Assembly (NCBI GenBank): GCA_017522185.1
Contig: JAFWZZ010000010.1
Location: forward strand, 50,149 to 114,148
Origin: Bacillota bacterium
Lineage (GTDB): Bacteria; Bacillota; Clostridia; Peptostreptococcales; Anaerovoracaceae
Reading direction: 5' to 3'
DNA length: 64,000 nt
The notes beneath the pieces were generated by a model. The model saw only the letters and a program-made list of their open reading frames with translations, did not search any database and was not told where the DNA came from. Shown in pieces: positions 1,805-46,011 of this stretch. The position numbers and the translations under genes were made by a program. How positions within the stretch are numbered: the first letter of the stretch is position 1; each line of letters begins with the position of its first letter.

Positions 1805-2895
1805 TACAGATTCTCCTCTTCAAATTTCTTCATGAAAGCAATCAGTTTTTCTACGCCTTCCTTCGGCATAGCGTTGTAGATGCTCGCTCTCATACCGCCT
1901 ACACTGCGGTGTCCATTTAAGTTAATCATACCCTCTGCCTTCGCATCGGAAACAAATTTCTTGTCTAAATCCGTGTCGCCTGTTACGAATACTACGTTCA
2001 TCAGGGATCTGTCTTCCTTCGCTACAGGGCTCTTAAACAGTTTACTCTGGTCGATATAACTGTACAGCAACTCTGCCTTTTCTACGTCAGCCGCGTGCAT
2101 TGCTGCCAGGCCGCCCATTTCTTTGATTCTCTTGAACACCAGCCCTGCGATGTAAATCGCGAAGCATGGCGGTGTATTGTACATGGAATCGTTCTTTGCG
2201 TGTACCTTGTAATCCAGGTAAGTCGGTACGGTCGCATCTGCGTGGCCGATCAGGTCTTCTCTGATGATGACGATGGTCATGCCGGCAGGGCCCACATTCT
2301 TCTGTGCGCCTGCAAAGATGACGCCGAACTTTGTCACGTCGATTTCTTCACTCAGGATGCAGCTGGACATGTCAGCAACCAGCGGAATGTCTCCGGTGTC
2401 AGGCAGTTCGTTCATGTGCGTACCGTAAATGGTGTTGTTATAGCATACATATACGTAGTCCGCATCCGGTCTGATATCTTCCTTTGTGAACTTCGGAATG
2501 TATGTAAAGGTATCTTCTTCGGAGCTTGCAATCAGGCGGATATCGCCGAATTTACATGCTTCCTGGTATGCCTTCTTGCCCCAGGAACCGGCAACTACGT
2601 AGTCAGCCTTTTTAGAGGCTCTCAGCAGGTTTAATGGCACCATTGCAAATTGAAGAGTTCCTCCGCCTTGTAAAAACAGGACTTTGTAGTTTTCCGGGAT
2701 GTTCATCAAATCGCGCAGATCTGCTTCTGCTTCTTCGATGATCTTACCAAACTCTTTTGAACGGTGACTCATTTCCATGACAGACTGTCCGCATCCATTG
2801 TAGTCAGCAAGGTTTGCAGCTGCATCTTCGATTACGTCAAGCGGCAGCATGGATGGTCCTGCGGAAAAGTTAAATACTCTGTTTGTGTTTGTCAT
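1804..2895 (-). CDS. serC: Phosphoserine aminotransferase
   Basis: A PLP enzyme of fold type I that converts 3-phosphohydroxypyruvate and glutamate to phosphoserine and 2-oxoglutarate. At 363 residues it has normal length. Visible signatures are FSAGPSMLP at the start, HRSKEF near residue 45, LQGGGTLQFAMVP, the ADMSSCILSE segment, and the PLP-lysine region IFAGAQKNVGPAGM near residue 200. The C-terminal half has GHRSVGGMRASIYN. It is the first gene of the serC-apgM-dac run and is transcribed away from the serA-like gene at 3033, so the first two steps of serine synthesis form a divergent pair. No serB is seen in the window. Confidence 0.96.
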   Translation of the reverse strand: MTNTNRVFNFSAGPSMLPLDVIEDAAANLADYNGCGQSVMEMSHRSKEFGKIIEEAEADLRDLMNIPENYKVLFLQGGGTLQFAMVPLNLLRASKKADYVVAGSWGKKAYQEACKFGDIRLIASSEEDTFTYIPKFTKEDIRPDADYVYVCYNNTIYGTHMNELPDTGDIPLVADMSSCILSEEIDVTKFGVIFAGAQKNVGPAGMTIVIIREDLIGHADATVPTYLDYKVHAKNDSMYNTPPCFAIYIAGLVFKRIKEMGGLAAMHAADVEKAELLYSYIDQSKLFKSPVAKEDRSLMNVVFVTGDTDLDKKFVSDAKAEGMINLNGHRSVGGMRASIYNAMPKEGVEKLIAFMKKFEEENL

Positions 2896-2949
2896 TTTTG
2901 TCCCCCTCCATTGTGTTTCAAAATATTACCTAAAATTCATATGCTAAAT

Positions 2950-2978
2950 ATTATAGCACTTTAGTCCTTGAAAGTAAA
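2950..2978 (-). promoter_or_regulatory. serC promoter (-35 TTTACT, 17 bp, -10 TATAAT)
   Basis: On the minus strand TTTACT (2978-2973) is followed by a 17-bp spacer and TATAAT (2955-2950), about 55 bp before the serC start. The -35 box touches the -35 box of the divergent serA promoter at base 2973. Two RNA polymerases probably cannot occupy both promoters at once. Confidence 0.75.
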
Positions 2979-2996
2979 GGAATTCGGTGTTATAAT
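2968..2996 (+). promoter_or_regulatory. serA promoter (-35 TTGAAA, 17 bp, -10 TATAAT)
   Basis: TTGAAA (2968-2973), a 17-bp spacer and a perfect TATAAT (2991-2996) form a strong sigma-A promoter. A consensus-like GAGGAGG ribosome site lies at 3018-3026, just before the ATG at 3033. Confidence 0.82.
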
Positions 2997-7209: not shown

Positions 7210-7806
7210 TTATTTCCTTTCTTTCAGCAGTCTTTCCAATGTGGCCAGCGCGTTAGCTCTGTGGCTGATCTCGTTCTTCTCTTCCGGAGAAAGCTGTGAA
7301 AAGGTTCTCTGGAAGCCGTCCGGTACAAATAGCGGATCGTAGCCGAAACCGTTTTCACCCACAGGCGTATCGATGATATGGCCGTGGCACTCGCCTCTCG
7401 CAGTGATGGCTTCACCATCCGGGAATACCATGGTAATGACAGAGACGAACTTTGCTCTTCTTTCTTTGTATGGTACATCCGCGAGAAGTGTCAGCAGTTT
7501 CTCATTGTTCTTCTGGTCGTTACCGTCTTCTCCGGCAAATCTTGCGGAATACACGCCAGGTGCACCGCCCAGGTAATCCACCATCAGACCGGAATCATCG
7601 GAAATGGTAGTCTTACCGCAAAGCTTCATGATTTCATAAGCCTTCTTATAGGAGTTTTCCTCAAAGGTTTCTCCGTCTTCTTCGATTTCAATCTTCGGCA
7701 CGCCGGCATCATCTCTGGAGATAATCTCCATACCGAACTTCTGTAAAATGGCCTGCATCTCGTCAATCTTATGCTGATTTCTGGATGCTGCTACAATCGT
7801 TTCCAT
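7210..7806 (-). CDS. rdgB: XTP/dITP diphosphatase (RdgB/HAM1)
   Basis: A 198-residue nucleotide house-cleaning pyrophosphatase that removes dITP and XTP from the pool. The substrate loop SRNQHKIDEM, the metal-site segments GETFEENSYKKA and DDSGLMVDYLGGAPGVYSARFAG, and the C-terminal SHRANAL are all present. I place the start at METIVAAS (ATG 7804-7806) because a GGAAAGGAAG ribosome site precedes it and homologues begin there. The reading frame stays open 20 codons further upstream, where it encodes a basic, non-homologous peptide. It lies between rph and yihY; the rph-rdgB pair is a common bacterial arrangement. Confidence 0.95.
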   Translation of the reverse strand: METIVAASRNQHKIDEMQAILQKFGMEIISRDDAGVPKIEIEEDGETFEENSYKKAYEIMKLCGKTTISDDSGLMVDYLGGAPGVYSARFAGEDGNDQKNNEKLLTLLADVPYKERRAKFVSVITMVFPDGEAITARGECHGHIIDTPVGENGFGYDPLFVPDGFQRTFSQLSPEEKNEISHRANALATLERLLKERK

Positions 7807-7840
7807 GTCTGTAACTTCCTTTCCTTTTGTCGTACTACGC

Positions 7841-8542
7841 CTATAACATCGCCTTCTGCATTTCATGCAGCTCTCTGCAGCCTTTTTCGGCCAGATCCAG
7901 CAGTTCCATCAGGTCCGCCTTGGAAAACGGTGCTTCTTCGCCGGTTCCCTGCACTTCGATAAACTCGCCTTTGTCTGTCATGATGACATTCATGTCGACT
8001 TTGGCGTTGCAGTCTTCCGCGTAACGAAGATCCAGCAGTTTCTCGCCGTCCACGATGCCGACACTGATGGCGGATACGCAGGCTGTTACCGGGATTTCTT
8101 CGATCATGCCCTGTTCTTTCATCCACTGCATCGCCTGTACCATGGCAACATAGGCCCCTGTAATGGATGCCGTTCTGGTACCGCCGTCGGCCTGAATAAC
8201 ATCGCAGTCAATCCAGATCGTACGCTCACCCAGCTTTTCCATATCTACCACAGAGCGCAAGGATCTGCCGATCAACCTCTGGATTTCCACGGATCTGCCA
8301 TCCTGCTTGCCCTTGTCTCTCTTCTTTCTCGTACCTGTAGAACCCGGCAGCATACCGTATTCCGCAGTGACCCAGCCTTTGCCGGTTCCAACCAGGTGTC
8401 TTGCCGTGCTGTCTTCCACCGACGCCGTGCAGATTACCTTGGTATTGCCCATTTCAATCAAAACAGACCCCTGGGGGCTCATCAGGTAATGGTCTGTCAT
8501 CTTCACATTTCTCAGTGCATCAAAGCTTCTATCTGTTCTCAT
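7841..8542 (-). CDS. rph: Ribonuclease PH
   Basis: A 3'-to-5' phosphorolytic exoribonuclease that trims the 3' ends of tRNA precursors, working as a hexameric ring. At 233 residues it is slightly shorter than the usual 240 or so. Signatures include the N-terminus [34 protein letters not shown]-like [15 protein letters not shown], the arginine-rich [18 protein letters not shown], and the phosphate-site [13 protein letters not shown]. The C-terminus ends at LHEMQKAML. It is the first gene of a five-gene operon (rph, rdgB, yihY, dgk, nlpC). Confidence 0.96.
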
Positions 8543-8574
8543 AACGATTACCTCTTTTAATATTCTAACAATAA

Positions 8575-8583
8575 ATTATACCA
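8575..8583 (-). promoter_or_regulatory. Extended -10 promoter of the rph operon
   Basis: The minus strand reads TGGTATAAT (8583-8575), a TGn-extended consensus -10, about 33 bp before the rph start. No good -35 lies 17 bp upstream, which fits an extended -10 promoter. Confidence 0.55.
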
Positions 8584-8653
8584 TATATTACAAAGTTGTG
8601 CTATACTTGTACTGCAATAAATTAGTATACCGAAACAGAGGAGTGAACATACA

Positions 8654-9565
8654 ATGAAGGTAATCGTTTTAGATGCATATTCTATCAATCCGGGAGACCT
8701 GACATGGGAGCCTGTAGAGCAGCTTTGTGAGCTCACAACTTACAACCGTACTTCTAACGACCAGGTTGCAGAACGCATGCAGGACTGCGATGGCATCTTT
8801 GTCAGCAAAGTCTCTATCACCCGGGAAATCATGGAGAAATGTCCGAAACTGAAGTTCATCGGTGCTACAGCGACAGGTTACGATAACATCGATGTGACAG
8901 CGGCAAAAGAGCTTGGCATCGCCGTTTGCAACGTACCGGCCTATTCTACAGAAGCCGTGGCACAGCACGCCTTTGCACTGATTCTGGAACTGGCAAATCA
9001 GGTCGGCAGCTATAACGCCGCCGTACAGGATGGAGCATGGTATCGCAGCAAGGACTTTACTTTCATCAACGAGTCCCTGACCCTGCTGGACGGCAAGTCC
9101 TTAGGTATCATCGGCTACGGTAACATTGGCAAACGTGTAGCCCGCATCGGCGAAGCCTTCGGCATGAAAATCAACGTATACAGCCAGGATCCGGTTGCGG
9201 CACAGAAGTCCGATTATCTGACCCTGCACTGCCCTGCTACCGCTGAGAACCGGGGCTTCATCAACAAAGAATTCATCGCCGGCATGAAAGACGGTGCCAT
9301 TCTGATCAATACTGCCAGAGGGGCTTTGGTCAACGAGGAAGACCTGGCAGAAGCCCTGAAGTCCGGCAAACTGGCAGCCGCAGGAGTAGACGTTCTGTCC
9401 TGTGAACCGCCAAAAGATCCACATCCGCTCATCGGTCTCGCAAACTGCATCCTGACACCGCACAACGCCTGGATGCCAAGAGAAACCAGAGCCAAGGTCG
9501 TAGACATCTGTGCACAGAACCTGGCCAGCTTCTTAGACGGCGGCCGTCACAACCGTATCGTATAA
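8654..9565 (+). CDS. D-2-hydroxyacid dehydrogenase (glycerate dehydrogenase/hydroxypyruvate reductase-like)
   Basis: A 303-residue NAD(P)-dependent dehydrogenase. The catalytic triad residues are visible: Arg in INTARGALVNEEDL, Glu in GVDVLSCEPP and His in LTPHNAWMP. The Rossmann motif is GIIGYGNIGKRVARI. Between that motif and SDYLTLHCPA the usual linker (a helix plus LDELLAQSD-like segment) is about 14 residues shorter than in the serA-like protein at 3033, a local deletion in the cofactor domain. No ACT domain is present. An AGAGGAG ribosome site precedes the ATG. It is a single-gene unit with its own terminator. The class is secure; the substrate (hydroxypyruvate or glycerate) is inferred. 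Confidence 0.88.
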   Translation: MKVIVLDAYSINPGDLTWEPVEQLCELTTYNRTSNDQVAERMQDCDGIFVSKVSITREIMEKCPKLKFIGATATGYDNIDVTAAKELGIAVCNVPAYSTEAVAQHAFALILELANQVGSYNAAVQDGAWYRSKDFTFINESLTLLDGKSLGIIGYGNIGKRVARIGEAFGMKINVYSQDPVAAQKSDYLTLHCPATAENRGFINKEFIAGMKDGAILINTARGALVNEEDLAEALKSGKLAAAGVDVLSCEPPKDPHPLIGLANCILTPHNAWMPRETRAKVVDICAQNLASFLDGGRHNRIV

Positions 9566-9578
9566 ACGCAATAAAACA

Positions 9579-9610
9579 GGGAGCCTTTCCATTTGGAAAA
9601 GGCTCCCTTT
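9579..9610. terminator. Intrinsic terminator after the hydroxyacid dehydrogenase
   Basis: GGGAGCCTTTCC (9579-9590) pairs with GGAAAAGGCTCCC (9595-9607) with one bulged A, then TTT. It lies between converging genes and could work for both, with an A-rich left flank. Confidence 0.8.
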
Positions 9611-9623
9611 GTCGTCTGTGAAA

Positions 9624-10595
9624 TTATATAAATAAGAACGCAGCATACGCCATCACAATGCACGCCGGGCAAATGAACTGGGTCTTTTTGTTTCTGAATC
9701 TGAGCATGATGTAGAAAGCAATGGCTGCCACAATACCGCATCCCAGCAGTTTCACCACTTCTGCGCCTGGAGTCATATAAATCTGTCTGTTAATCGCAAC
9801 AAAGTCTGCAGCAACCAGAATCAGGAAGTTGAACAGGTTGCTTCCCACGATATTACCTACCGCGATGTTGTAGTTCTTCAGTTTGAACAGTCTCAGGGAC
9901 GTGGTCAGTTCCGGAACGGATGTTGCAACGCCCAGAAGGATTGCCCCTGCCCAGGTTTTGGTCAGTTCAATTTTAACGGAAATTTCGTTTGTCAGTACCG
10001 TTAACAGAATACTCGCAATCACCAGTGCAATGGCGGTAATTGCAAATTTAGGGAGAATCTTGTCCGGACGATGCTTCCCTTCTGCCATTTTCCGTGCCTG
10101 ATACTGGATCATTTCATCATCTGCCTCCACATCTTCGGCAACAGCCAGATACTTGGCTCCCAGCAGATATACGATAACCATAAGAACAGACGTGATGTTG
10201 ATATGCAGAATGTTGAAATTAATGATATTCGCATAGTTCAGCACCAGCAGCAGATACATCGTGAATACGATTAGCACCACGTGTCTGTAACTCTTGGAAA
10301 TCCTGCCCTTCGTAAAGCGCTTGAAGTAAGCCAGAATGATGACCGCCAACGCAGTAAAATTAAACAGGTCGCTTCCAAGAACATTACCTACACAAAGTTC
10401 CGGATGACCTAACAACATGGTTGCAGATACGCTGGTAAACAGTTCCGGCAGGGAGGTAACCCCGGATAACAGGATCCCGCCGAGGAATGCGCCGGACAGC
10501 TTGGTGTTTCTGTCTAAGCTGTCTACGTAGTCAGATATTTTAATGGATAATACGACAACGATGGCTGCCATAATCAAGTAAGCTAAATAAATCAC
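9624..10595 (-). CDS. CaCA-family sodium/calcium exchanger-like antiporter
   Basis: A 323-residue integral membrane antiporter with the duplicated architecture of the CaCA family. Each half carries one alpha repeat: the first has LLSGVTSLPELFTSVSAT and GNVLGSDLFN, the second has LLGVATSVPELTTSLRLF and GNIVGSNLFN. A cytoplasmic loop lies between the halves (about residues 165-190, including DVEADDEMIQYQARKMAEG). It should exchange Ca2+ or another divalent cation against Na+ or H+. It is divergent from a DtxR-type regulator at 10744, and an inverted repeat overlaps its promoter, so a metal-linked role is likely. The actual ion is not established. Confidence 0.9.
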   Translation of the reverse strand: MIYLAYLIMAAIVVVLSIKISDYVDSLDRNTKLSGAFLGGILLSGVTSLPELFTSVSATMLLGHPELCVGNVLGSDLFNFTALAVIILAYFKRFTKGRISKSYRHVVLIVFTMYLLLVLNYANIINFNILHINITSVLMVIVYLLGAKYLAVAEDVEADDEMIQYQARKMAEGKHRPDKILPKFAITAIALVIASILLTVLTNEISVKIELTKTWAGAILLGVATSVPELTTSLRLFKLKNYNIAVGNIVGSNLFNFLILVAADFVAINRQIYMTPGAEVVKLLGCGIVAAIAFYIMLRFRNKKTQFICPACIVMAYAAFLFI

Positions 10596-31057: not shown

Positions 31058-31133
<76 letters not shown>

Positions 31134-31229
31134 ACGTTTGGTTGCCGCTGTACGGCAACAATCTATATGATACCTTACCATAGTATATGGTGTATGGTGC
31201 AAAATATACCATTTCTCTTTTGATAAAAT

Positions 31230-31318
31230 TGGTGCCGGAGACCGGGGTCGAACCGGTACGATCGGTAAGGATCGCAGGATTTTAAGTCCTGTGCGTCTGC
31301 CAATTCCGCCACTCCGGC
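31230..31318 (-). tRNA. tRNA-Leu (TAA), copy 1
   Basis: An 89-nt class II tRNA with acceptor GCCGGAG/CTCCGGC, discriminator A and encoded CCA. The anticodon loop CTTAAAA gives TAA. A long variable arm is present (GATCC..GATC region). It lies between tRNA-fMet and tRNA-Asn. Confidence 0.95.
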
Positions 31319-31339
31319 ACATCAATCTATCGAAATAAA

Positions 31340-31414
31340 TGGCTCCGAGGGTGGGGCTCGAACCCACAGCCTACCGGTTAACAGCCGGTTGCTCCACCAT
31401 TGAGCTACCTCGGA
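31340..31414 (-). tRNA. tRNA-Asn (GTT), copy 1
   Basis: A 75-nt gene with acceptor TCCGAGG/CCTCGGA, discriminator G and encoded CCA. The loop CTGTTAA gives GTT. It is the first tRNA of the cluster on the minus strand. Confidence 0.95.
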
Positions 31415-34182: not shown

Positions 34183-34258
<76 letters not shown>

Positions 34259-34280
34259 ATATTATGAAGTTTGATAAAAT

Positions 34281-34369
34281 TGGTGCCGGAGACCGGGGTC
34301 GAACCGGTACGATCGGTAAGGATCGCAGGATTTTAAGTCCTGTGCGTCTGCCAATTCCGCCACTCCGGC
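34281..34369 (-). tRNA. tRNA-Leu (TAA), copy 2
   Basis: An 89-nt gene, as far as I can see identical to copy 1, including the encoded CCA and the preceding TTTGATAAAAT spacer. Confidence 0.95.
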
Positions 34370-34392
34370 ACATCAATCATATCGAAAATAAA

Positions 34393-34467
34393 TGGCTCCG
34401 AGGGTGGGGCTCGAACCCACAGCCTACCGGTTAACAGCCGGTTGCTCCACCATTGAGCTACCTCGGA
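34393..34467 (-). tRNA. tRNA-Asn (GTT), copy 2
   Basis: A 75-nt gene identical to copy 1. It is the first of cluster 2. A small hairpin, TTTGTCGCC/GGCGACAAA (about 34471-34494), lies between it and the promoter. Confidence 0.95.
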
Positions 34468-40372: not shown

Positions 40373-42757
40373 TTATGTTTTCTTCAGTTTCACCACGGTG
40401 ACACCGTCGCCGCCTTCGTTGTAATTTCCCTTTCGGAAAGAGGCAACGTGTTTCTGTTTCTTCATCATCTGTCTGAGACCACTGGACAGGATGCCTTCGC
40501 CTCGGCCATGGATGATGGTCACTTCCTCCAGACCTGCCACATAGGCGTCGTCCAGGTACTTCTCCACGTTCATCATGGCGTCTTCCAGATTCTGTCCCTG
40601 ACAGTTATAGGTGATGGACACGTTCTGTGCCTTGGCCTTATACAGAGAGCCGTAACTCTTTCCCGCAGGCTTTGGCTTTTTCTTCTTTTCCGTGCCGTCT
40701 ACGATCAGCATCAGGTCATCCACGTTCAAGTTGGCCTTCATGATACCGATCTTCACCTGCAGGTTGCCGTCGCTGTCCGGCAGGGAAAGGATTTCCCCGT
40801 TCTGGTCCAGTGACAGGACTTTGACCCTGTCTCCTACCTTCAGCTGGGAAGCCTTCACCGGGTTGGCGTTGACCTGCTTGATGATCTTTTCTGCATAGCG
40901 GCCTTCCTTCTCCTTCAGCTTCTTACGGCTTTCGTCGAAGCGGCGGTTCCGCTCGCCCAGGCTGCCGGCCTTTGCCAGCGCCTTCAGTTCCTTCTGTACT
41001 TCGGTAGCCGTTTCTCTGGCTTCACGAAGCATTTCTCTGGCCTCTTCTCTGGCATCGGCCAGGATTTTTTCCTTCTTTTTCTTCAGGTCAGCCAGTTCTT
41101 TCTCCAGCGTTTCCTGTTTCTTTTTCATGTCAACGCTGATGCGGATGGCCTCGTCGCGTTCCTCCTCGGCCCTCTTTTTGTCTTCTTCGATGGCGCCGAT
41201 GACATCTTCGAACTCGATGTCCTTCCGCTCGATGAGCTGTCCCGCCCTGTCGATGATATCGCCGGACAGACCCAGCTTCTTTGAGATTTCAAAGGCATTG
41301 GATCTGCCGGGAATCCCAATAGATAATTTATAGGTCGGGCTCAGGGTTTCCACATCGAATTCCATGGATGCGTTTTCCACGCCCGCAGTTGACAATGCGT
41401 ATTTCTTGATTTCGTTATAGTGGGTGGTCGCCAGGATGGTGGCACCTTTGTCATAGAGCCTTTCCAGAATGGAAATGGCCAGTGCCGCCCCTTCCGTCGG
41501 GTCAGTACCCGCCCCCAGTTCGTCGATGAGCACCAGAGATTCTCCATCCGCCTCTTCCACAATATGAACGATGTTCTTCATATGGGAGGAGAAGGTAGAC
41601 AGGCTCTGCTCGATGCTCTGCTCGTCGCCGATGTCTGCAAAGACCTTCGTATAAATCGGCAGCTGGCTGGTTCCGGATGCCGGAATATGCAGCCCGCTCT
41701 GTGCCATCAGTGCCAGCAGACCCACGGTTTTCAGGGTTACGGTCTTACCGCCGGTGTTCGGTCCTGTCACCACCAGGCTTCGGTATCTGCCGCCTACGGC
41801 CACGTTAATCGGTACTACTTTCGCAGGGTCGATCAAAGGATGTCTGCCCTGTTTCAGGTCTAAAATGCCCTTGTCGTTGATAGACGGAGCTTCCCCGCGC
41901 ATCTTGCCGGAAAGTTTTCCCTTCGCCATGATAAAGTCCAGCTGGACCAGGATTTCCTGATTGTTCTTCAGATCGTGATAGTGTTCTGCCACGGCAGAAG
42001 AAAGCTCACCTAAGATCTTTGCGATTTCCGCCTGCTCTGCCAGCTCCAGTTCACGCAGCTCGTTGTTTAAGTTTACCACAGCCTGGGGCTCGATAAACAG
42101 AGTGGAACCTGCCTTTGACTGGTCGTGGACGATGCCCGGCACGTTGCCCCTGTACTCCTGTTTAACCGGCACCACGTATCTTCCGTTACGCATGGTAACG
42201 ATGGCATCCTGCAGATAAGTTCTGTTGGCCGATGAGTTGATGATGTGGTTCAGCTTGGTTTTGATAGAGTCGTTAGCCCTGCCGATGGCCCTTCTGATGT
42301 CCCGCAGCTCAGGAGATGCGTTGTCGCTCATCTCGTCTTCGGAGATGATGCTGCGGTCGATGCGGTCATAGAGACGGGGCATGGTAACCAGCAGCTCCGT
42401 CATGGAAGTGATGACCGGCATCGGAGGCACATCGCTCTTGACGAAGCTTACAACTCTCGCCGCGATACCCATGTTGAAGTGGACCTGCAGCAGCTGCTTC
42501 ATGGTCAGCGTGCCGCCTTTCCTTGCAAATTCAACGCTCCCGCCGATATCGTAAATACCGCCTGTCGGCAGCAACCCTTTACGCACAATAAGGTCAACCG
42601 CTTCTGTAGTTGACCTTAGCTCTTCTGAAATGGCCCGGACATCGGTATAGGGGCGCAGTTCAGAGATTACCTGTCTGGTCATATCCGAACCTGCTTCCGC
42701 CTTCAAAAGTTCGATTATTTTATTGTATTCTAAAACATCCAGTGCTTTTTGATTCAT
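40373..42757 (-). CDS. mutS2: MutS2 endonuclease/ribosome-rescue ATPase with Smr domain
   Basis: A 794-residue MutS2. The core and clamp domains occupy residues 1-320. The ABC-type ATPase has Walker A GPNTGGKTVTLKT and Walker B-type LVLIDELGAGTDPTEGA with the ATTHY switch. A long coiled coil (about 515-640, with ERDEAIRISVDMKKKQETLEKE) follows, and the C-terminal Smr nuclease domain has IIHGRGEGILSSGLRQMM. MutS2 lacks the mismatch-recognition domain of MutS and is linked to suppression of recombination or to sensing collided ribosomes. It follows zapA as in many Firmicutes. Confidence 0.97.
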   Translation of the reverse strand: MNQKALDVLEYNKIIELLKAEAGSDMTRQVISELRPYTDVRAISEELRSTTEAVDLIVRKGLLPTGGIYDIGGSVEFARKGGTLTMKQLLQVHFNMGIAARVVSFVKSDVPPMPVITSMTELLVTMPRLYDRIDRSIISEDEMSDNASPELRDIRRAIGRANDSIKTKLNHIINSSANRTYLQDAIVTMRNGRYVVPVKQEYRGNVPGIVHDQSKAGSTLFIEPQAVVNLNNELRELELAEQAEIAKILGELSSAVAEHYHDLKNNQEILVQLDFIMAKGKLSGKMRGEAPSINDKGILDLKQGRHPLIDPAKVVPINVAVGGRYRSLVVTGPNTGGKTVTLKTVGLLALMAQSGLHIPASGTSQLPIYTKVFADIGDEQSIEQSLSTFSSHMKNIVHIVEEADGESLVLIDELGAGTDPTEGAALAISILERLYDKGATILATTHYNEIKKYALSTAGVENASMEFDVETLSPTYKLSIGIPGRSNAFEISKKLGLSGDIIDRAGQLIERKDIEFEDVIGAIEEDKKRAEEERDEAIRISVDMKKKQETLEKELADLKKKKEKILADAREEAREMLREARETATEVQKELKALAKAGSLGERNRRFDESRKKLKEKEGRYAEKIIKQVNANPVKASQLKVGDRVKVLSLDQNGEILSLPDSDGNLQVKIGIMKANLNVDDLMLIVDGTEKKKKPKPAGKSYGSLYKAKAQNVSITYNCQGQNLEDAMMNVEKYLDDAYVAGLEEVTIIHGRGEGILSSGLRQMMKKQKHVASFRKGNYNEGGDGVTVVKLKKT

Positions 42758-42787: not shown

Positions 42788-43252
42788 TTACTTGTTTTTC
42801 AGGTATTTCTCCAGTTCGCTCTTCAGACGGATGTTCTCCATCTGCAGGTCGAAGAAGGAGTTTTCGTACTCATTGCACTTGGCAGCCAGTTCTTTCAGAC
42901 GGTCTTCGTACAGTTTTTCCTGTTCCTTCATGCCGGACAGGTTTTCCTTGAACTGGTTGAAGCTCTTCTTCGTGTCTTCCCACATCTTCTGGTAAGCCTT
43001 GCAGTCGTTTTCCACCTGGGCCTTGGCCGTGCGGGCAGCTTCCGCCTGCGCCAGTGCATCAAAATATTCTTCTGTGATATTGATAGCAGACAGAATACCC
43101 AGGGTTCCATTGGAAACCTCACCGGAGAATCTGCTGATCAGGTTCATCTTGTTGTCTACGTATTCCGCAATTCTTACAATCTCTTCCTCAGTCTTTTCCC
43201 CTAAAATTGTATAGTCCTGTCCGTAAATCTTTACTGTTACTTTGCTATCCAT
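42788..43252 (-). CDS. zapA: ZapA-family cell division protein
   Basis: A 154-residue FtsZ-ring stabiliser. The N-terminal globular part reads VKIYGQDYTILGEKTEEEIVRIAEYVD and NMNLI-like KMNLISRF, the usual ZapA dimer region. A long coiled coil follows (residues 65-150). It is longer than typical ZapA (about 85-100 residues). The position between the pheT relic and mutS2 matches the conserved pheT-zapA-mutS2 order. ZapA bundles FtsZ at mid-cell. Confidence 0.9.
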   Translation of the reverse strand: MDSKVTVKIYGQDYTILGEKTEEEIVRIAEYVDNKMNLISRFSGEVSNGTLGILSAINITEEYFDALAQAEAARTAKAQVENDCKAYQKMWEDTKKSFNQFKENLSGMKEQEKLYEDRLKELAAKCNEYENSFFDLQMENIRLKSELEKYLKNK

Positions 43253-43274: not shown

Positions 43275-44045
43275 TTAATTCAAATCGTTGTCAAAAGTTG
43301 TGCCGAATAAAGCTCTGATCTGCTGTTCCAGCTCATCCAGCTGCGCCGCTTCTTCCGCCAGAATTGCCGCATCGATGGATGGTGCTGCAGTTTCATCTTC
43401 CTGCGGTTCCTGATTTGCAGCAGCTACCAGGCCTACTACCAGATCCAGGAACAGTTCTGCGCCGTAGGCATCGCATCCGATGAAGAAGTTATCTACAACC
43501 TCCGGATGGAATTTTCCCATGATGCCCAGTTCCACTTCCTGACCGGAAGGATCTTTCGTAACGATTCTTTCACACTGGTCAGGGGCATAAGTGCCGTATT
43601 CAGATTCCGGTACGAACTCCACTTCCGCCATGCCCATGTTCAGCAGGAAGGCTCTCATGGTACCTCTCATGTTCTCCAGGCTTTCCCCTTCGCCGTAAGC
43701 GCCGAAGGACAGATTCCAGGACTTAAAAGGATCTGCTGTCGGAATCAGGTAGTTCTTCGTGTAGGTATTGCCGATTTCGAAGGCTCTGACCGCCTCGATT
43801 TCGCCGATGCGGCAGCCGCCCAGGGCAACCAGCATAGACGGTGTCAGAATGGTTCTCAGGGCCTTCATACCGTCTCCGGATGCATCAGGTACTTCCGGAA
43901 AATCTCTTTCCCAGGAGTCCATGTCGATTCTTGCAGCGTTCATCAGCTCCTGACTGGCCGTGTCCGCCGGTTCTATTTCTCTCGCCCCCAGGCTTGCCAT
44001 CAGTTCTCTGACAAAGCCCAGGATCTGGTTCATTTTCTCATCCAT
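43275..44045 (-). CDS. Stand-alone PheRS beta-subunit core-domain paralogue (PheT relic)
   Basis: A 256-residue protein that aligns by eye with the middle core region of phenylalanyl-tRNA synthetase beta (roughly E. coli PheT 480-660). Matching landmarks are ILGFVRELMASLGAREI, MKALRTILTPSMLVALGG (compare MSAMRLSLWTGLL), AVRAFEIGNTY (compare RIFESGLRF), LENMRGTMRAFLLNMGMAEVEF (compare YDLKGDLESVLDL), and LGIMGKFHPEVVDNF (compare IGFVGVVHPEL). The tRNA-binding, B5 and FDX-ACB domains are missing. An acidic helical tail of about 45 residues is added. The gene lies exactly where pheS-pheT normally sit, between trmH and zapA. It is intact and has a normal start, so it is likely functional, though not as PheRS. 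Confidence 0.75.
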   Translation of the reverse strand: MDEKMNQILGFVRELMASLGAREIEPADTASQELMNAARIDMDSWERDFPEVPDASGDGMKALRTILTPSMLVALGGCRIGEIEAVRAFEIGNTYTKNYLIPTADPFKSWNLSFGAYGEGESLENMRGTMRAFLLNMGMAEVEFVPESEYGTYAPDQCERIVTKDPSGQEVELGIMGKFHPEVVDNFFIGCDAYGAELFLDLVVGLVAAANQEPQEDETAAPSIDAAILAEEAAQLDELEQQIRALFGTTFDNDLN

Positions 44046-44050
44046 GTATG

Positions 44051-44818
44051 TTAATCTCTCTTTCTCTTGGTTTCGTACATCAGAATCCCAGCCGCCACAG
44101 ACGCGTTGAGGGATTCCAAATGACCATCCATCGGGATTTTCACCGTAATGTCTGCCATTTCCATCAGTTCATCGGACACACCGTTGCCTTCGTTGCCGAT
44201 GACCAGGGCAACCCCGCGGGAGAGGTCCTCGTCATAATAGTATTTGTCCGTATGGAAACCGGTTACCACCAGCTTCTTACCCAGTCTGTCGGTCAAATCA
44301 CGTAGCACCTGGTTATCTTCCACCTGCAGTACCGGCATACGGAAAATGGATCCCGCCGCCGCACGGATTGTCTTCGGTGAAAAGACATCTCCGGTGCCCT
44401 TGACGGTTACAACCGCCTTGTAGCCGGCACCTTCCGCCGTTCTGATAATCGTGCCGATATTACCCGGATCCTGCAGTCTGTCCAGGACCACCACGTTGTC
44501 GGATGGCTGGATCTGCTGCTCCAGGTCGGCTGCTGTCAGCTTCGGTTTTCTGACCACCGCCAGAATGCCCTGGCTGGTTTCCGTCTGAGCCAGCTTGTCA
44601 AAGAGCTGTTCCGCCACGATATACTGGTCCGGCAGATCAAAAATCTGACGCTCTCTGCCTTCCCGGAAGAAGACATAAACCAGGTCTTTCGTCGGTACTT
44701 CCGCGATCAGATTCTCACCTTCGATCAGATACAGGCCTTCCTTGTCTCTGTATTTCTTCTGGGAAAGTTTCTGGCATTCCTTGAATATTCTGTTGTCTTT
44801 GGAGCGTATTTCTCTCAT
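44051..44818 (-). CDS. TrmH/SpoU-family rRNA/tRNA 2'-O-methyltransferase
   Basis: A 255-residue SPOUT methyltransferase. The N-terminal RNA-binding domain has KDNRIFKECQKLSQKKYRDKEG. The three SPOUT motifs are LDRLQDPGNIGTIIRTAEGAG, LVIGNEGNGVSDEL and IPMDGHLESLNASVAAGILMYE. It adds a 2'-O-methyl group to a ribose, probably in 23S rRNA. It precedes the PheT-core gene by 5 bp, the place of the methylase upstream of pheS in Bacillus and Clostridia. Confidence 0.93.
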   Translation of the reverse strand: MREIRSKDNRIFKECQKLSQKKYRDKEGLYLIEGENLIAEVPTKDLVYVFFREGRERQIFDLPDQYIVAEQLFDKLAQTETSQGILAVVRKPKLTAADLEQQIQPSDNVVVLDRLQDPGNIGTIIRTAEGAGYKAVVTVKGTGDVFSPKTIRAAAGSIFRMPVLQVEDNQVLRDLTDRLGKKLVVTGFHTDKYYYDEDLSRGVALVIGNEGNGVSDELMEMADITVKIPMDGHLESLNASVAAGILMYETKRKRD

Positions 44819-44886: not shown

Positions 44887-46011
44887 TTATTTCTGTAAGA
44901 AGTCTGGCATGATGAATTTGGAATCTCTTGGATCTTCGTCTCTTGTTTCATCGAAGATCTGACCCAGAGTCACGCTTCTTCCTGTCAGTCCGTTTTCTGT
45001 TACCACATCCTGTACCTGCGGTTTTTCGATTGGCTTGTAAACAACGCTGTCTTCTAAGCCTTCGCCAAAGCCAGTTGCAATTACAGTGATACCGATTTCT
45101 TCGTTCATTTCTTCGCTGACAGCTGCACCGAAGATTAAGATCGCTTCAGGATCAGCCTGTTCCTGCACTAAGCTTGCGATTTCGTTTACTTCTAACATAC
45201 CCAGGTCGTATCCGCCGGATACATATAACAGAATCGCTCTTGCGCCTGCGATGGTAGTTTCCAGTAATGGGCTTTCGATAGCGGACTTCACTGCATTCTT
45301 CGCTCTGTCTTCGCCAGCCGCCTTGCCTGTACCCATGTGGGCAATGCCTCTGTCCGTCATAACGGACTTTACGTCTGCGAAGTCCACGTTGATCAGTGCG
45401 TAGTCGGAGATTAAATCGGAAATACCCTGTACACCCTGTCTCAGTACGTCGTCTGCCATGTTGAACGCCTGCATCATGGAAGTGTTCTTTTCACATGTTT
45501 CTAATAACTTATCATTTGGAACTACAACCAGAGAGTCCACATATTTCTTCAGGAACTTCAGTCCCAGTTCCGCCTGGTCTTTTCTCTTCTTGCCTTCAAA
45601 GGAGAATGGCTTGGTTACAACACCAACGGTTAAGATCCCCATGTCCTTGGAGGCCTTCGCGATAATCGGTGCAGCACCTGTGCCTGTACCGCCGCCCATG
45701 CCGGCAGTGATGAAGACCATGTCTGCGCCTTCTAATAAATCTGTAATTTCATCCAGAGTTTCTTCTGCAGATCTCTGTCCAACTTCCGGATTGCCGCCTG
45801 CACCCAGTCCTCTGGTTAATTTCTCACCAATCTGAATTTTTGTTTCTGCCTTACATCTGTTCAGAGCCTGTTTATCCGTGTTTACAGCGATGAACTGTAC
45901 ACCCTTTAAATCAGCTTCCATCATACGGTTTACCGCGTTGCATCCGCCGCCGCCGACACCGATAACTTTGATTACAGCTGAATTGTCAATACTTGTCTCA
46001 AATTGCAGCAT
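44887..46011 (-). CDS. ftsZ: Cell division GTPase FtsZ
   Basis: A 374-residue tubulin-like GTPase that forms the division ring. The GTP loop is [16 protein letters not shown], with [17 protein letters not shown] at the N-terminus and the T7 catalytic loop [11 protein letters not shown] near residue 208. The C-terminal conserved peptide is FIMPDFLQK, which binds ZapA-independent partners such as SepF or FtsA. No ftsA gene is adjacent, as in several Clostridia. It is the last gene of the dcw cluster, 74 bp after ftsQ. Confidence 0.98.

Follow-up and report, generated by a model that had tools for sequence, protein, structure and literature searches.

The window, the whole 64,000-nucleotide stretch of DNA analysed here, belongs to a genome of 2.12 Mb (G000; 99.1% complete) and contains a short gene, X, that we describe as an orphan gene for the catalytic-like module (CLM) of PheT. 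The locus comprises the following features, listed with the evidence for each:

40373..42757, reverse strand: mutS2, beyond zapA (Pfam MutS_V and Smr)
42788..43252, reverse strand: zapA, downstream of X (PF05164)
43275..44045, reverse strand: X, orphan PheT CLM gene, 256 aa (open reading frame, PF17759, gapless alignment to native PheT, codon tests)
43275..43448, reverse strand: acidic tail of X, residues 200-256 plus the stop (alignment, composition, AlphaFold2 model)
43449..44027, reverse strand: CLM domain of X, residues 7-199 (PF17759, AlphaFold2 model, Foldseek matches)
44051..44818, reverse strand: trmH (SpoU methylase), upstream of X (PF00588)
44055..44063, reverse strand: AAAGAGAGA, putative ribosome binding site inside the 3' end of trmH (read from the sequence)
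44887..46011, reverse strand: open reading frame upstream of trmH, used as a locus anchor, position conserved in relatives by tblastn; we take it to be ftsZ

X begins with ATG and runs for 256 codons with zero internal stops, 5 bp from trmH and 22 bp from zapA; reading of the open reading frames thus confirmed the coordinates, intact frame and tight spacing given in the initial annotation. The order trmH-X-zapA-mutS2 that it had proposed is likewise borne out by Pfam, which places the neighbours in the SpoU/TrmH, ZapA and MutS2/Smr families. In a quick tree, the ZapA of the window (42788-43252) has a terminal branch of 0.41, compared with 0.07-0.11 in five congeners and 0.13 in G077, a genome of a second genus.

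Profile searches agree that X is the core-like domain of PheT, as had been suggested from its sequence. The PheT CLM family PF17759 matches residues 7-199 (E = 5.1e-18, 65.8 bits, gathering cut-off 22.4), and NCBIfam pheT_bact matches residues 60-245 with 35.2 bits against a full-length cut-off of 402.65. Pfam found no other PheT domain in X, with the related class II core PF01409 falling just under its cut-off; X lacks the tRNA_bind, B3/4, B5 and FDX-ACB domains of a functional PheT and has PF17759 alone. No pheS adjoins X, and a pheS above the PF01409 cut-off is found only on contig C21. Over 233 codons X can be aligned gap-free with residues 515-747 of native PheT from a relative, G072, with 85/187 identical residues over X13-199 and 12/46 over X200-245. 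Because this gapless alignment extends to X residue 245, the acidic tail (13 D+E and 1 K+R in residues 201-256), initially described as new, is better read as an eroded remnant of the first part of the native FDX-ACB domain than as a clearly new sequence.

In line with the expectation that true PheRS must be encoded elsewhere, a whole-genome search recovered pheS (350 aa) and a full pheT (813 aa) on C21, the only complete pair in the genome. The C21 PheT carries all five PheT Pfam domains, its own CLM included. Compared with the native pair of G072, the C21 pair is about 30% identical in PheT and 37% in PheS. Within the class, 11 of the 391 genomes, spread over nine families and including G000, have this rare form of PheRS at E <= 1e-150. 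Within its own genome, X gave no match to the rare-form PheT at E <= 10. Across the family (Anaerovoracaceae), 126 of 148 genomes contain a match to X at E <= 0.001, mostly within frames of 700-880 aa; among the exceptions are the orphans and frames that a contig end interrupts. Apart from the locus in G077, the 34 others in a first comparison hold native PheT or cut native PheT. Each of the other 12 congeners has a native-type match (11 with the whole domain, one cut at a contig end), and native pheST lies between trmH and zapA in all nine congeners read with both anchors. Relatives that carry names include Emergencia, Hornefia and Aminicella, and the species of the window is probably itself an Emergencia. 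The loss of pheS and most of pheT from a conserved place, which had been proposed from gene order, is therefore supported by relatives that show trmH-pheST-zapA. Since the nearest relatives have full-length native PheT while G000 has its PheRS elsewhere in the rare form, native pheST appears to have been displaced and the CLM alone to have stayed. Sequence comparison thus makes X almost certainly a residue of native pheT left after takeover by the rare form, and not a paralogue that replaced pheST, as first suggested. A chimeric contig or mis-joined deletion could produce a similar picture in what is a 35-contig draft; however, none of the 20 native CLMs compared exceeds 47% identity to X, the frame of X is intact, a complete PheRS is present elsewhere in the genome, and the same arrangement recurs in G077, so that we give an assembly artefact almost no credence.

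The orphan of G077 is a CLM of 251 aa that starts 2 bp after trmH (PF17759, 105.7 bits), with tight junctions similar to those of X. This genome, too, has a full rare-form pheST on another contig, and the rare-form PheT is 63% identical between G000 and G077. Both orphans start at the CLM start, and that of G077 also ends at the CLM end. The siblings of G077 in its genus, G132, G242 and G243, have full native pheT and share with G077 an insertion of about 40 residues that is absent in X. In a tree of the CLM, the G077 orphan and G243 form a group (support 89), and X joins, weakly, native PheT of the neighbouring genus (support 68). An AU test on the CLM left a single origin unrejected (two orphans as sisters, p = 0.13), and in plain identity the G077 orphan is 49% identical to G153 versus 39-43% to its siblings. 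On the strength of synteny and the insertion common to G077 and its siblings, two independent truncation events seem the better reading, and a single origin is disfavoured.

We compared 47 stretches spanning this locus. The order trmH-pheS-pheT-zapA is found in 19 of them; trmH and zapA are 29-81 bp apart in 20 (from 19 genomes); a fragment is kept in three (G000, G077 and G054); and one or both anchors are absent in four (G132, G122, G058 and G309). In the one remaining stretch, from G169, the 318-bp gap between trmH and zapA held no detectable remnant of PheT or PheS. Five genomes were left out of the 47: G015, G075 and G146 have no trmH match, and in G037 and G026 a native PheT end adjoins zapA at a contig end. 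No fragment is left in 20 of the 23 displaced genomes read, so the CLM is dispensable in general; the clean-loss genomes are non-independent of each other.

A wider survey with PF17759 covered 349 family genomes (330 matched) and 158 order genomes (154 matched), with 37 family genomes followed in full, and among the matches listed there was no third CLM orphan; G177 and G178, each with a second PF17759 match, fall outside the fully followed family genomes. Short frames in G404, G037 and G026 were rejected as orphans because each ends at a contig end. A short PF17759 match in a congener was also rejected: L051 passes PylS_Cterm and sits between PylC and PylD. The other short matches in congeners, candidates of the same kind, are similar to it in size and score weakly. 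In named genome contigs, where a first scan with X as the sole query gave zero matches, 80 of 276 confirmed loci were kept (76 in frames of at least 700 aa, 4 cut by a contig end), and a plasmid search gave four weak matches, two annotated as pheT and two unannotated. No T-box was found at the Rfam gathering threshold in the five stretches L038, L128, L058, L057 and L132.

At 70 alignment columns, at least 19 of the 20 native CLMs agree; both orphans keep 36 of these and both lose 11, while 15 are lost in X alone and 8 in G077 alone (Fisher p = 0.05). Among the residues lost in both are the entire NP motif and, from HPGRCA, the H, G, R and A; we read the shared losses as a probable release from a PheRS-specific interface with the fold kept. 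The retained columns also bear on whether X is an operon spacer, with a frame kept for ribosome passage from trmH to zapA-mutS2 (polarity) and a protein that is irrelevant. Such a role would suit the tight gaps around X (5 and 22 bp) and the similar junctions of the G077 orphan, but under a spacer role both orphans would hardly have preserved 36 of the 70 near-invariant native residues. Moreover, trmH lies 29-81 bp from zapA in 19 displaced genomes, which evidently need no spacer. We consider this explanation very unlikely.

Codon models provide moderate evidence for the earlier proposal that X is retained and not decaying. With X placed by the MutS2 tree, and G164 kept outside the fits except as a control, omega was 0.40 on the X branch versus 0.069 elsewhere, and both an omega of 1 (2dlnL = 6.8) and the background omega (2dlnL = 10.5) were rejected. 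Two alternative topologies gave omega values of 0.32 and 0.45 for X (2dlnL versus omega 1 of 13.8 and 5.0, respectively). The G077 orphan yielded an omega of 0.26-0.32, with 2dlnL versus omega 1 of 3.5-5.2 across fits. Six native terminal branches served as controls, with an omega of 0.03-0.08 in five and 0.21 in G164 (2dlnL = 6.7 versus one rate). The native PheT of G164 (L156) is whole, yet its CLM is fast, with a branch of 0.93 alongside this elevated omega.

A recent remnant that is still decaying, functionless and with a frame merely unhit so far, would account for several of these features. The protein branches of the orphan CLMs are long (1.56 and 1.12, versus 0.01-0.55 and one of 0.93 in native CLMs), signature residues are gone in X, and nothing was kept in most displaced genomes. 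However, a constrained-then-neutral model for X is 2.7 lnL worse than one intermediate omega at equal parameter number and needs 0.444 neutral substitutions per site, at which simulation gives a probability of about 0.001 (P = 0.0007-0.0023) that 233 codons stay open. The corresponding mixture for the G077 orphan, whose omega is 0.31-0.32 in this set of fits, is worse by 1.7-1.8 lnL, with an open-frame P of 0.0007-0.0017. The absence of any gap relative to G072 over those 233 codons, together with the same state in G077, speaks further against decay, which we regard as unlikely. With one genome per orphan lineage, part of each orphan branch may predate truncation. Given an omega of 0.40, no stop and a gapless alignment to G072, X does not qualify as a pseudogene. 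It is probably retained by selection that is relaxed but present, for which the evidence is fair in X and weaker in G077. On this moderate evidence X is a separate intact gene kept by selection, in the manner of a HisZ-like pseudo-synthetase.

The AlphaFold2 model of X has a mean pLDDT of 85.8 and a pTM of 0.75 and predicts a class II-like antiparallel core, the fold demanded by the PF17759 family. Confidence is lower in the tail, where pLDDT is mostly 52-78 per block (averaging 52 over residues 211-220 and 55 over residues 251-256) and one helix is predicted (residues 236-250). The top PDB match of the model in Foldseek is chain B of Plasmodium PheRS; the best 50 of 1237 matches contain many PheRS beta chains and also SepRS, PheRS alpha and PylRS, and matches to PheRS chains have a probability of 1.00 with TMq of about 0.6-0.67. 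PDB entries 3ica and 3ig2, whose titles name a PheRS beta subunit or beta-chain domain, are 194-207 aa long, and their existence indicates that a chain of CLM size is able to fold alone.

What such a free domain might do is suggested by its place in the parent enzyme. According to the available text of PMC3275996, the CLM of PheRS has no catalytic activity, and a four-helix-bundle interface is formed by catalytic modules (CAMs) and CLMs; a free CLM would therefore most likely be a protein-binding module. One such possibility is that X still contributes to PheRS in trans, partnering the C21 rare-form PheS in assembly or regulation. The catalytic module of PheS is the known partner of the CLM (PMC3275996, available text), and both orphan genomes have related rare-form PheRS. 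On the other hand, the C21 PheT has its own CLM, G049 has a rare-form PheT 62% identical to that of G000 without an orphan at the locus, and the native NP and HPGR-A residues are gone in both orphans. We judge a role in trans to be improbable.

The account that we favour, with moderate confidence, is that displaced native pheST left a salvaged pseudo-synthetase core, which has been kept and may act as a protein-binding module. In the presumed order of events, acquisition of rare-form pheST elsewhere would have made the native pheS-pheT between trmH and zapA redundant. Next, pheS and N-terminal pheT would have been lost in a deletion that ran from the trmH end to where the CLM coding region begins, and the C-terminal FDX-ACB domain would have disappeared or eroded. 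The class II-like core would remain as a gene of its own in the old row under relaxed but real purifying selection; we infer both that X is translated and that selection acts on the protein instead of a spacer. The free CLM would bind protein, either as a homodimer or through a class II partner such as rare-form PheS, and by analogy with HisZ we tentatively suggest this as its mechanism. X might conceivably inhibit PheRS, given that nematode PheRS beta parts became toxins. In contrast, binding of tRNA by X itself, one of the roles first proposed, is weakened by the acidity of the free CLM (pI 4.3, net -18; 201 residues compared), although native CLMs are acidic too (pI 4.3-4.8). A division-related role is a candidate for which the neighbouring zapA is the sole basis.

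Free-standing relatives of synthetases are usually explained by duplication. The locus described here points to another route, in which an essential enzyme is replaced horizontally and one of its domains is then retained, and the native and clean-loss relatives within one family constitute a natural experiment on the dead core of PheRS beta alone. X resembles native PheT in its gapless match to residues 515-747 and its predicted CLM fold; it differs in that the OB-fold, B3/4, B5 and any recognisable FDX-ACB domain are missing, as are an adjoining pheS and the NP and HPGR-A residues. Like HisZ, PoxA/EpmA and other aaRS paralogues, as covered in the available text of PMC9437257, X would keep a synthetase core without tRNA charging; HisZ itself is a regulatory subunit without adenylation activity (PMC9437257, available text). 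HisZ and PoxA/EpmA, however, come from a duplicated catalytic core, whereas X would come from the already dead CLM of PheT after displacement, and the available text of that review nowhere mentions 'PheRS'. In Caenorhabditis tropicalis, the toxins KLMT-1, PZL-1 and HYDE-1 derive from PheRS beta (FARS-3), with PZL-1 homologous to the C-terminal domain, so that parts of PheRS beta have repeatedly been reused separately (PMC12680543, available text). Those toxins are duplicates of a retained gene and come with antidotes, whereas X, between trmH and zapA, is what remains of a gene that was displaced. In the available portions of open-licence PMC papers, they were the only printed case of reused PheRS-beta parts that we found. 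Horizontal replacement in spirochaetes is similar in that essential PheRS was swapped for a divergent outside form, but the incoming form was archaeal and the available text describes no leftover domain (PMC3191353).

PylSc, the C-terminal fragment of PylS, is similar to X in size and has a related class II core, but it sits with pylC and pylD, while the neighbours of X are trmH, zapA and mutS2 and X is nearest to PheT. X was rejected as a PylSc, as no PylS model matched it up to E 10, in contrast to L051. In that stretch (67-2991, genome G157), genes for PylC, PylS C-terminal and PylD stand in a row, all above NCBIfam cut-offs, which places pyrrolysine genes in a congener.

The third fragment, in G054, comes from the other end of PheT. 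This single draft genome is 89% complete in about 270 contigs and contributes two features:

L112 (G054:C15), 2418-2996, forward strand: lone native N-terminal OB-fold domain between trmH and zapA, 192 aa from ATG (PF01588, 67.7 bits)
L240 (G054:C97), 7708-9831, forward strand: the other PheT of this genome, 707 aa, adjoining pheS (similarity to query PheT forms)

The lone frame for this tRNA-binding OB-fold is 43-50% identical to native PheT N-termini. PF01588 does not match the 707-aa PheT, which is 25-30% identical to the rare and native forms used as queries. As the leftover is exactly the domain that the other PheT lacks, it could possibly complete a foreign PheRS in trans. With lone domains of an old PheT kept at this locus, the CLM in two genera and the OB-fold in G054, it is possible, if speculative, that displaced synthetases are mined for parts that take on new work. 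In a separate genome, G326, a rare-form PheT runs in frame into an ABC transporter/TOBE part (L141, G326:C18, 4207-7401, forward strand; 1064 aa), possibly through an assembly error, and a native-type PheT match lies at a contig end of the same draft. Elsewhere in the window, a tRNA trio (Met-Leu-Asn) occurs twice, at 31058-31414 and 34183-34467, about 3.1 kb apart and in blocks that are 97-100% identical.
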